This document shows, one piece after another, positions 38,036-40,567 of a stretch of DNA of 64,000 nucleotides. Every line of letters starts with the position of its first letter. Positions within the stretch are counted from its first letter, which is position 1. The notes beneath the pieces were generated by a model. That model ran no database searches, was not told where the DNA came from, and saw only the letters and a list, made by a program, of their open reading frames with translations. Origin of the DNA: Fundicoccus culcitae (lineage in GTDB: Bacteria > Bacillota > Bacilli > Lactobacillales > Aerococcaceae); NCBI RefSeq assembly GCF_024661895.1, contig NZ_CP102453.1:2480001-2544000 (forward strand). Reading direction: 5' to 3'. Position numbers and translations under genes: made by a program.

Positions 38036-38109
38036 TTAAGTGGCCTATCAGTAAATCGGTAGGCCACTTAACGTTTCAAGTGGCCTATCCCCACCTCGTT
38101 CAGGCCACC
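38036..38109. repeat. AAGTGGCCTAT palindromic units
   Basis: CTTAAGTGGCCTATC and GTAGGCCACTTAACG form a 13-base stem; a second, weaker unit follows. It lies between convergent genes and could also work as a terminator for pduO. Confidence 0.75.
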
Positions 38110-38117
38110 ACCCCACA

Positions 38118-38143
38118 CAAAAAAGCTGTCACCCCGTGACAGC
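38118..38143 (-). terminator. Terminator after the arsC-like gene
   Basis: On the minus strand GCTGTCAC, a short GGG loop and GTGACAGC are followed by TTTTTTGTG. Confidence 0.9.
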
Positions 38144-38158
38144 CCCCAACACCAATTC

Positions 38159-38833
38159 CTACCCCACAACATACAACCGATCCAACACCTCATCATAACT
38201 TTCCTTCATGACATCCGCAAAAGCATGAACAAAGTACTTCGAAGGCACAGCCTCGTCAGATTCCGCACGCTTCAAGAAATTAACATTGACACCAATTTTC
38301 TCCGCTGCATCCTCAAGTGACAAACCATTTTCCTCACGAATCTCACGCATCACAGCACCAAAATTGTCCCGTTGAGGATAAAAAGTATCTTCCCGATTAA
38401 TGAAATTAGTATCTTCAGTAATCCCATCCTTAACATATGCTTTAATCAACTCATGCAAACTATCCCGTGTCTTAACAAACGCCGCATGAATCTCTTCATC
38501 CGTCCCCACCACCTTCGCCGGATCCTCTAAGCCCCAATGAATATGCTTAGAACGCGGTGGCACATTCGGGCACCGTTCATAGGCATCTTTACACAAAGTC
38601 ACCACAATATCCGCCGATTGAAACAAACGCACATCAATCACTTTTGACGTTTGATCCGAAATATCAATCCCAATCTCATCCATAACCTGCACCGCATAAG
38701 GATTTACAACCCCCACTTCAATACCCGCACTATAGATGTCGTACTCATCGCCCAAATAATACTTGGCCAAACCCTCCGCAATCTGACTCCGCGCCGAATT
38801 ACTCGTACACAAAAAATACAAGACCTTTTTCAT
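38159..38833 (-). CDS. arsC: ArsC-type arsenate reductase fused to a helix-turn-helix domain
   Basis: 224 residues, against about 130-140 for a usual thioredoxin-linked ArsC. Residues 1-140 are the low-molecular-weight phosphatase fold: P-loop FLCTSNSARSQIAEG near 8-22 (CX5R), VTLCKDAYERCP near 78-89 supplies further Cys, HIHWGLEDPAK near 97-107. Residues about 158-215 (VMREIREENGLSLEDAAEKI, then FLKRAESDEAVP) read as an XRE-like helix-turn-helix. The fusion could make the protein a DNA-binding sensor as well as an enzyme. Last gene of a minus-strand pair with the rhodanese; the ArsR and aquaporin genes run in the opposite direction. Confidence 0.85.
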   Translation of the reverse strand: MKKVLYFLCTSNSARSQIAEGLAKYYLGDEYDIYSAGIEVGVVNPYAVQVMDEIGIDISDQTSKVIDVRLFQSADIVVTLCKDAYERCPNVPPRSKHIHWGLEDPAKVVGTDEEIHAAFVKTRDSLHELIKAYVKDGITEDTNFINREDTFYPQRDNFGAVMREIREENGLSLEDAAEKIGVNVNFLKRAESDEAVPSKYFVHAFADVMKESYDEVLDRLYVVG

Positions 38834-38861
38834 CTCAAAACCCCCTTAACAAATCCCTCTG

Positions 38862-39413
38862 CTACTCACCAACCGCCTGCACAGCCTTCATCCCACCTTC
38901 AATGACCTGCGCATCAAACCCTTGGGTCAACAAATAAGAAGCCGCTGCGGTACTACGATTTCCCGAACCACATAATGTATAAATCGTTTTAGTTTGATCT
39001 AAATCATTTAAACGCTTAGGTAAATCCTCAAAAGGAATATTCAACAAGTTTTTCTCAGGAGCAGGGCGTGTGATTTCATCCGGTGTCCGCACATCCAACA
39101 AAATATAATCCGTTTCTAAGCCCAAGAATTCTGACGCAGGAATGGTTTCAACACCAACCAAAGTATCCTCCGGAATTGAATCAGCCATCAAATAACCAAT
39201 CACAGAATCATGACTAATCTCATCTAAAACTGTCACATCATCAATGACCACAACTATCTTTTCATCATCACCGACAAAATAATCAAGGTATTTCTTAAAA
39301 TTACCAGGGTTTAAATTCAACGCATTTTTCAGGTGTCCTGCTTGAAAAGCCGTTTGAGTCCGCACATCAATCACTTTTTCATCAACAACATCAGCAAAAA
39401 TTAATTCTTTCAT
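38862..39413 (-). CDS. Double rhodanese-domain protein
   Basis: 183 residues from the ATG at 39413, with AGGAGG seven bases before; an ATG two codons earlier sits too close. Two rhodanese-like domains. The first (residues 5-80) lacks the catalytic Cys (VVVIDDVT at the loop). The second (85-180) has LCGSGNRSTAAASYLL with the active Cys. Such proteins handle sulfane sulfur. Lying between an arsenic-type promoter and arsC, it may support reduction of thiolated arsenic or supply sulfur; that is inference. Confidence 0.85.
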   Translation of the reverse strand: MKELIFADVVDEKVIDVRTQTAFQAGHLKNALNLNPGNFKKYLDYFVGDDEKIVVVIDDVTVLDEISHDSVIGYLMADSIPEDTLVGVETIPASEFLGLETDYILLDVRTPDEITRPAPEKNLLNIPFEDLPKRLNDLDQTKTIYTLCGSGNRSTAAASYLLTQGFDAQVIEGGMKAVQAVGE

Positions 39414-39459
39414 CGCCATTCCTCCTCATTGACTAATAGTCGCAAACAGTTTATTATAC

Positions 39460-39475
39460 ATAGACAAATATCTAT
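39460..39475. promoter_or_regulatory. Candidate ArsR operator between divergent ars genes
   Basis: ATAGACAAATATCTAT is a palindrome (ATAGA, six bases, TCTAT), with two further TCTAT repeats after it. It sits in the 139-base divergent promoter region between rhodanese and aquaporin genes. Confidence 0.6.
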
Positions 39476-39552
39476 CTATCTATCAAAAGTATACAATCTT
39501 TTAATACAAATAAATAGTCTTTTGACTCAAATAATTTTAGGAGCCCATCATC

Positions 39553-40209
39553 ATGAACAAAAAATTTATCGCAGAACTGACCGGTACCTACTTCCTCGTC
39601 CTAATAGGCACAGGAACCGCCGTCTTTTCCGACAACCTAATAGCCATTGCACTCGCCTTTGGCCTCGTCGTCACCGTCCTGATCTTCAGCTTCGGCAACA
39701 TTTCAGGCGCACATTTCAACCCATCGGTCACGCTTGCCATGTTTTTAAACCATCGAATACATACCGCTGATTTGATCCATTACCTGCTTGCTCAATTTAT
39801 TGGCGCCACCTTAGCGACAGCAACACTCGCGCTTATTTTAGCAAGCAATCAACTTGGAACGACCAGTCTTGGAGTGACCGTGCTTGGACCAGGTGTCAGC
39901 ATATTAGGTGGATTTCTCTTAGAGTTTATTATGACCTTCTTTTTTGTTATGATTATCTTAATTGCCTCAGGAAAAAATGGGCAACCACAATTTGCTGGTT
40001 TAATTATTGGATTAGCCTTAATCACATTAATTTTATTTGGAGCATCACTGACAGGCACTTCCTTAAACCCAGCACGCAGTTTTGGTCCAGCGATATGGAC
40101 AGGTGGACTTGCCTTGAATCAACTGTGGCTGTATATTCTAGCACCGATGTTGGGTGGGGCAGCGGCTGCGATTGTGTGTCGAAAGCTGTTTGATACGGAA
40201 AAAATTTAG
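39553..40209 (+). CDS. aqpS: Aquaporin of the AqpS/GlpF type
   Basis: 218 residues, six membrane helices and two pore loops. The first pore motif is GAHFNPSVT (NPS instead of NPA), the second GTSLNPARSFGP (NPA). Start nine bases after AGGAG. Next to arsR and opposite arsC, it probably lets arsenite leave the cell down its gradient, as described for AqpS of Sinorhizobium, since no ArsB or Acr3 pump is seen. Water or glycerol channel alone is the alternative. Confidence 0.85.
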   Translation: MNKKFIAELTGTYFLVLIGTGTAVFSDNLIAIALAFGLVVTVLIFSFGNISGAHFNPSVTLAMFLNHRIHTADLIHYLLAQFIGATLATATLALILASNQLGTTSLGVTVLGPGVSILGGFLLEFIMTFFFVMIILIASGKNGQPQFAGLIIGLALITLILFGASLTGTSLNPARSFGPAIWTGGLALNQLWLYILAPMLGGAAAAIVCRKLFDTEKI

Positions 40210-40219
40210 GAGAGATGAC

Positions 40220-40531
40220 ATGAATTACGAACGTTATGCAAAAGTCATGAAGGCTTTGTCCGACCCCAGTCGGGTTCAAATCATGGATATGTTATCGTGC
40301 GGGAAGATGTGTGCCTGCGATTTGTTGGAACACTTCGATTTTACCCAGCCGACCTTATCCCATCACATTAAAGTCTTGAAAGAAGCCGGCTTAGTTAATA
40401 CCGAAAAAAATGGTACCTGGCACCACTATTCCACCAACCTAGAAAACGTCGAAAAAGTCATTGCTTTTTCACAAGAAGTCTTTTCCAACAGCGAGCGCTG
40501 TATTTGCCATACAACGAAAGTCGAAGTATAG
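40220..40531 (+). CDS. arsR: ArsR-family metalloregulator
   Basis: 103 residues from the ATG at 40220 behind AGGAGAG; the longer frame overlaps aqpS. Winged-helix ArsR/SmtB fold with the DNA helix QPTLSHHIKVLKEAGLV near residues 44-60. Cys in MCACDLL near 31-35 are the classical As(III) ligands, and CICH near the end offers another thiol pair. Follows aqpS by 10 bases; presumably a repressor of both arms of the divergent cluster. Confidence 0.9.
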   Translation: MNYERYAKVMKALSDPSRVQIMDMLSCGKMCACDLLEHFDFTQPTLSHHIKVLKEAGLVNTEKNGTWHHYSTNLENVEKVIAFSQEVFSNSERCICHTTKVEV

Positions 40532-40542
40532 CTACATTGAAC

Positions 40543-40567
40543 GAAGCTGCTAGTCAGCTTCTTTTTG
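40543..40567 (+). terminator. Terminator after arsR
   Basis: GAAGCTG, a short loop, CAGCTTC and TTTTTG. Confidence 0.85.

Follow-up and report, generated by a model that had tools for sequence, protein, structure and literature searches.

What does a helix-turn-helix domain do at the end of an arsenate reductase? The question is raised by a four-gene arsenic cluster in the window, as we call the whole 64-kb stretch of Fundicoccus culcitae DNA that was analysed. The cluster has two divergent arms, with a tandem rhodanese gene and arsC-XRE running leftward and an aquaporin gene and arsR running rightward. A recheck of the open reading frames confirmed every gene coordinate and frame that the original prediction had given for 38159-40531. 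The features, together with a second ars operon of the same genome, are as follows.

38125..38143, minus strand: possible terminator after arsC-XRE, a hairpin followed by a T run (inverted repeat and T run as read; absent from the terminator scan list)
38159..38833, minus strand: arsC-XRE, arsenate reductase with a C-terminal XRE helix-turn-helix, 224 aa (open reading frame, profile matches, predicted model)
38189..38362, minus strand: XRE helix-turn-helix, residues 158-215, with helix 3 at 184-191 (Pfam profiles, predicted model, sequence relatives)
38363..38428, minus strand: linker, residues 136-157, with FYPQ common to both fusion copies (alignment of the two copies)
38429..38833, minus strand: reductase domain, residues 1-135, with catalytic C9 (CX5R), C81 and C88 (profile, alignment, superposition on 1jl3)
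38862..39419, minus strand: tandem rhodanese, N-domain without cysteine, C-domain with C150 in the loop CGSGNR, probable start at 39413 (profiles, alignment, fold match)
39429..39457, plus strand: promoter-like TTGACT-17-TATTAT for aquaporin/arsR (consensus match only)
39453..39482, minus strand: promoter-like TAGATA-18-TATAAT for rhodanese/arsC-XRE (consensus match only)
39456..39479, no strand: inverted repeat ATACATAG-N8-CTATCTAT, probable ArsR operator for both divergent promoters (repeat search; same motif at other ars loci)
39553..40209, plus strand: aquaporin (MIP), 218 aa, with motifs NPS and NPA and Ile at the AqpZ His174 position (profiles, alignment)
40220..40531, plus strand: arsR, ArsR/SmtB repressor with C31-x-C33, 103 aa (profiles, alignment)
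40543..40561, plus strand: terminator-like hairpin after arsR (terminator scan; 3 such sites in the region vs 2.1 expected)
Own genome C1:940760-947269 (L109:4761-11270): second ars operon, with two adjacent arsD, arsA, ACR3 and two tandem rhodaneses

A purine-rich stretch, read by eye as a potential ribosome-binding site, precedes each of the four start codons. For the rhodanese, both the ribosome-binding site and the two paralogues favoured Met at 39413 as the start. The promoter scan was near chance (7 found in the region vs 4.7 expected), with hexamers facing both directions. Between a cobalamin adenosyltransferase gene and arsC-XRE, at 38036-38087, AAGTGGCCTA or its complement also occurs three times and forms perfect inverted repeats, which may act as a terminator or represent a small repeat element.

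Reductase domain

By family assignment, residues 1-135 are a three-cysteine arsenate reductase of the pI258 type. They scored 65.5 bits against the LMWPc profile (cut-off 23.2) and passed, only just, the equivalog cut-off of TIGR02691 (arsC_pI258_fam; 174.6 bits vs 174.3), while the subfamily cut-off of PRK13530 was missed (162.9 vs 215). The CX5R motif reported for this domain is present and two further catalytic cysteines, C81 and C88, were also found; these, C9 and R15 are invariant in all 14 aligned ArsC sequences. Further, the predicted model superposed on ArsC of B. subtilis (1jl3) with an rmsd of 1.0 over 137 columns and a TM score of 0.97 by target length. The domain resembles the thioredoxin-coupled ArsC of B. 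subtilis and S. aureus pI258 (TIGR02691) in its CX5R, C81 and C88, and over 137 columns it is 53% identical to 1jl3. Unlike pI258 ArsC, however, arsC-XRE carries 89 extra residues with an XRE domain, and its loop reads CTSNSAR instead of CTGNSCR, without the second cysteine.

The organism's own chromosome encodes a second fusion, which shares 61% identity across residues 2-223, as well as a third, plain ArsC. The plain three-cysteine protein (L110:5684-6154) is adjoined, by eye, by an apparent SRPBCC gene and an ABC transporter pair, and no ars genes were recognised near it in the stretch listed.

XRE tail and probable operator

An XRE-like domain after the reductase was the central claim of the original prediction, and a C-terminus lacking a helix-turn-helix fold would have counted against it. 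Both the profile search and the predicted model placed a helix-turn-helix at residues 158-215. In the window copy this segment scored above gathering for HTH_31 (35.8 bits vs 27) and HTH_3 (32.3 vs 23); the second copy passed for HTH_3 (26.2 vs 23) and missed HTH_31 (25.5 vs 27). The AlphaFold model of arsC-XRE (mean pLDDT 86.4; block means of 78-94 for residues 151-220) has five predicted helices in the tail, at 158-168, 173-180, 184-191, 199-208 and 213-221, as in an XRE domain. The two fusion genes are saturated at synonymous sites (pS 0.81-0.84) whereas pN is 0.19 for the reductase and 0.31 for the tail (residues 158-224, where pS is 0.84). Selection has preserved the tail of each fusion.

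Is the intergenic region the target of this domain? The original prediction proposed 39414-39552 for DNA binding by the reductase, and one exact ATAG-N8-CTAT inverted repeat indeed lies there, at 39456-39479. Across the entire 64 kb of the window, the 8-base motif is not significant by count (3 found vs 0.99 expected; 7 of 100 shuffles reach 3), so that the single intergenic site rests on its position and on comparators. The promoter region of the second operon holds three exact copies (0.23 expected in the 12-kb stretch), and plasmid stretches of E. casseliflavus and Pediococcus hold five (0.19 expected) and, before arsR, two (0.18 expected); in each case none of 200 shuffles reached the observed number. 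All seven sites of the two plasmid stretches are 30-58 bp upstream of the start of arsR or arsB. The ArsR proteins of the Pediococcus and E. casseliflavus stretches are 54 and 60% identical to the window ArsR (NF033788, 96.1 bits vs a cut-off of 55; CxC motif present), and neither stretch contained an ArsC-XRE match. E. faecalis and L. innocua carry nearly the same operon, in which 4 of 5 and 5 of 5 sites, respectively, precede an annotated start, and are not independent evidence. A Priestia stretch whose ArsR is distant (35% identical) lacked the motif.

Because the motif and ArsR similarity go together where there is no fusion, ArsR is the likely and simplest ligand, and the repeat is best read, from its distribution, as a candidate ArsR operator. 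The XRE domain was rejected as its owner, since the repeat occurs where no fusion was found, and 39414-39552 as target of the reductase lost its support for the same reason: its repeat is common to ars promoters with a related ArsR and no fusion. Nor did a second motif for the XRE domain stand out beyond the ArsR-type repeat when the promoter regions of both fusion loci were searched; the few other 9-mers common to both, GTATACAAT and TATCTATCT, are taken as chance or promoter sequence. DNA binding by the tail is plausible and is not required to account for the promoter.

The account we think probable is that of an ArsR-controlled divergent arsenic detoxification cluster in which the XRE tail is a maintained, most likely DNA-binding module. 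The nearest solved sequence relatives of the tail are mostly transcription regulators, including SinR (E 5e-5 to 0.08). Between the copies, the helix-3 region (residues 181-192) is identical at 9 of 12 positions, V184, N185, F186, K188 and R189 among them, vs 20 of 46 elsewhere in the domain, a borderline excess (one-sided p 0.051). Both observations speak against the strongest alternative, in which the domain would be kept as an accessory part of the reductase for a purpose other than DNA binding, such as dimerisation, docking to the rhodanese or to thioredoxin, or stability. Such a purpose is a real possibility, held at about one chance in three. It would fit the acidic helix-turn-helix of both copies (net -6), a charge that does not favour DNA binding, and the lack of any convincingly shared promoter motif beyond the ArsR-type repeat; it would also fit the tandem rhodanese gene that directly precedes the fusion in both clusters.

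ArsR, the usual bacterial arsenic switch, senses arsenite. ArsC-XRE might act beside it as a substrate-sensing transcription factor, in which bound arsenate or the disulfide of the catalytic cycle alters DNA binding by the XRE domain, so that arsenate flux is read in parallel with the arsenite-reading ArsR. We put this forward tentatively and regard it as unlikely.

Tandem rhodanese

The upstream gene of the leftward arm was predicted to encode one dead and one active rhodanese domain, which holds at the motif level: the protein has a single cysteine, C150, in the loop LCGSGNR (CX4R, C150-R155). The sequence matched 3r2u and 3tp9 across both domains, and the fold matched 3tp9 with a TM score of 0.84 by query length, the best solved match being an MBL-rhodanese protein. 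In CstB-type persulfide dioxygenases an MBL-fold domain precedes the rhodaneses. The window protein shares the tandem rhodanese fold of CstB-type persulfide enzymes and of the MBL-fold/rhodanese proteins (3tp9, 3r2u) but, unlike them, consists of rhodanese domains only, without the MBL dioxygenase domain.

The genome has three copies of the tandem protein, one beside each fusion and one divergent at the second operon. Only two of the 397 other genomes of the class sample (G008 and G036) had the tandem, one each (E 1e-20), and no ars genes were recognised by eye near it in the stretch listed, which for one of them is a 9.7-kb contig with incomplete surroundings. With relatives in G008 and G036 that have no recognised ars gene nearby, the tandem rhodanese is not exclusive to ars loci and seems to have been recruited to arsenic clusters, not restricted to them. 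Two further observations were made by eye. A close tandem relative in a genome of another family (L189:7633-8730) lies beside an apparent integrase fragment, which hints at transfer. At L183:1638-3666, an apparent coenzyme A disulfide reductase with a rhodanese domain is followed by a single rhodanese gene, probably general sulfane-sulfur genes.

Could the tandem rhodanese act on arsenic directly, forming thioarsenate via sulfane transfer or reducing arsenate as Acr2 does? Three copies at the organism's own ars clusters and a tandem in just 2 of 397 other class genomes would agree with this. Acr2 and Cdc25 are rhodanese-fold proteins with an HCX5R loop, however, and the CX4R loop of the window protein differs in length, on which ground an Acr2-like rhodanese was rejected. 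The two other genomes with the family, including the one known from the 9.7-kb contig, showed no ars gene by eye, and among solved structures an MBL-rhodanese protein matches best. A direct action on arsenic is therefore doubtful. In the ArsR-controlled cluster that we favour, the rhodanese would probably supply or clear sulfane sulfur in arsenic-caused thiol stress.

Aquaporin and arsenite pump

The statement of the original prediction that there is no arsenite pump is correct for the window cluster and does not extend to the genome. From its promoter, the second operon encodes arsA, arsR, arsD, arsD, ACR3, rhodanese and arsC-XRE, with the third tandem rhodanese divergent; the order rhodanese then arsC-XRE is common to both clusters. 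ACR3 (TIGR00832, 375.1 vs 282.8) and ArsA (TIGR04291, 799.6 vs 650) passed their equivalog cut-offs and both ArsD proteins passed the Pfam cut-off. With ACR3 and ArsA encoded in the same chromosome, the cell is equipped with an arsenite pump and the matching ATPase, and passive exit without a pump finds no support at the level of the whole cell.

What, then, would the aquaporin add? The protein belongs to the MIP family by profile and is closest in sequence to AqpZ structures. It missed the AqpZ equivalog cut-off (NF003838, 157.3 vs 256) and has Ile in place of His174, a filter residue of AqpZ. At this position relatives have Ala (the aquaporin of a Priestia arsenic island) or His (Staphylococcus and Bacteroides relatives). 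Given the altered filter residue and the missed cut-off, plain AqpZ was rejected and the protein fits a putative channel for solutes other than water. It is best seen as a probable extra exit for arsenite beside the pump. The Priestia island is on a plasmid (L168:5546-18639), where the aquaporin gene stands beside genes for a radical SAM protein, a GTP-binding protein and a phosphate transporter.

Exit of arsenite by a reductase plus a channel is already described for AqpS of Sinorhizobium meliloti in the accessible text of a review (PMC6205960). The window cluster, with reductase, aquaporin and no pump gene of its own, resembles that system and the AqpS-ArsC fusion of Salinispora (PMC6205960, accessible text); unlike these, it has a pump encoded elsewhere in its own genome, and its sequence places the channel in the MIP family without establishing the name AqpS. 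The local gene set and this precedent (PMC6205960, accessible text) would suit a self-sufficient cluster, the scheme of the original prediction, in which passive exit is the sole arsenite route and a DNA-binding reductase controls 39414-39552. We consider this improbable: ACR3 and ArsA are in the same chromosome, and the repeat of that region matches ars promoters elsewhere that have no fusion.

Two fusion copies and occurrence elsewhere

The two fusion genes differ in G+C (0.44 vs 0.38), and in the vicinity of the second operon are a DUF2800 gene and a gene whose match to sigma-70 region 4 falls below threshold. On the strength of the base composition and these neighbours, we infer that the fusions look like relatives that moved independently and not like products of a recent duplication. 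The DUF2800 gene and the weakly sigma-like gene may point to a mobile element.

The fusion had been called an unfamiliar form, and within the sets searched it was not recognised outside its own genome. No full-length match was found in 59 other relatives, in 75 other genomes of the family, in 394 other genomes of the order sample (matches to E 1e-35), or, among the matches listed, in 397 other genomes of the class sample (E 1e-40 threshold; matches to about 3e-47). The same was true of 18 and 105 genomes of two further families and of 397 other genomes of the phylum sample (matches to E 1e-58 in all three); the same model and threshold recovered both own-genome copies in the phylum-sample search, a positive control that the two further families do not have. 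At thresholds of 1e-35, 1e-40 and 1e-58 a distant fusion could be missed, and the genome sets overlap. Other phyla were covered solely by a short-pattern search, which kept 80 of 229 relatives, and by plasmids and phages.

Among 72,556 plasmid records, 1022 matched the query, and one that covers at least 80% of it in one place may be a fusion. A linker plus helix-turn-helix query (E 0.01) found no fused plasmid record, its single match being a Streptomyces helix-turn-helix protein, which suggests that the high-coverage record is made of joined pieces. Phages gave 12 matches in 50,697, none covering 80% of the query, and viral contigs one relative, matched over residues 1-132 only. Long ArsC frames at the compared loci outside the organism's own genome had N-terminal extensions or other tails, none matching the XRE tail. 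One clostridial ArsC (L013:4950-5600) has a different, cysteine-rich C-terminal tail. That no third fusion was recognised might suggest an artefact in which a sequencing error or the loss of a stop codon ran arsC into an unrelated gene, but this reading is rejected and carries next to no weight, since both copies are full length and 61% identical, with linker and helix-turn-helix conserved across saturated synonymous sites.

Known fusions and proposed function

Fusions of ArsR with ArsC are reported from Leptospirillum ferriphilum, Microbacterium and Sinorhizobium in the accessible text of PMC6205960, a review that also covers an ACR3-ArsC fusion, AqpS clusters and an AqpS-ArsC fusion and in which ArsC is quoted as seemingly 'predestined' for fusions. 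Like the ArsR-ArsC fusions, arsC-XRE joins a regulator-type domain to ArsC in one polypeptide; unlike them, its partner is a C-terminal XRE domain and not ArsR, and a separate ArsR is retained. Three ArsR-ArsC frames at the compared loci (L010, L082 and L048) have an N-terminal HTH_5 above its gathering score, and the arsC-XRE chain gave no HTH_5 match up to E 1. ArsRM of Brevundimonas sp. M20, a tested fusion of enzyme and regulator that is reported to bind its own promoter and to methylate arsenite, also combines an enzyme with a DNA-binding-type domain in one arsenic protein, but from an ArsR-type domain and a methyltransferase instead of ArsC and XRE (PMC10190100, accessible text). The accessible open-licence literature yielded no description of an ArsC-XRE fusion or of a rhodanese in a cluster of this type; in that of PMC2701414, ArsC appears merely as a neighbour of ArsR. 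That the new element is an ArsC with a C-terminal XRE domain, as against the known ArsR-ArsC fusions, is well supported; the remaining parts of the cluster are of familiar kinds.

In the ArsR-controlled cluster proposed here, arsenite would free ArsR from the operator and induce both arms. ArsC would then reduce arsenate, and arsenite would leave the cell down its gradient via the aquaporin and via the ACR3/ArsA pump of the second operon. The XRE domain would most likely bind DNA at some other site and so tie the reductase to transcription or to a chromosomal place.

In the ATAG-N8-CTAT repeat, this set of Bacilli has a candidate ArsR operator that can be tested. The fusion, kept under selection in two diverged operons, lets one ask in concrete terms whether a detoxifying enzyme can report on its own substrate. 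Should the tail not bind DNA, it would still be a case of the XRE fold reused within an enzyme.
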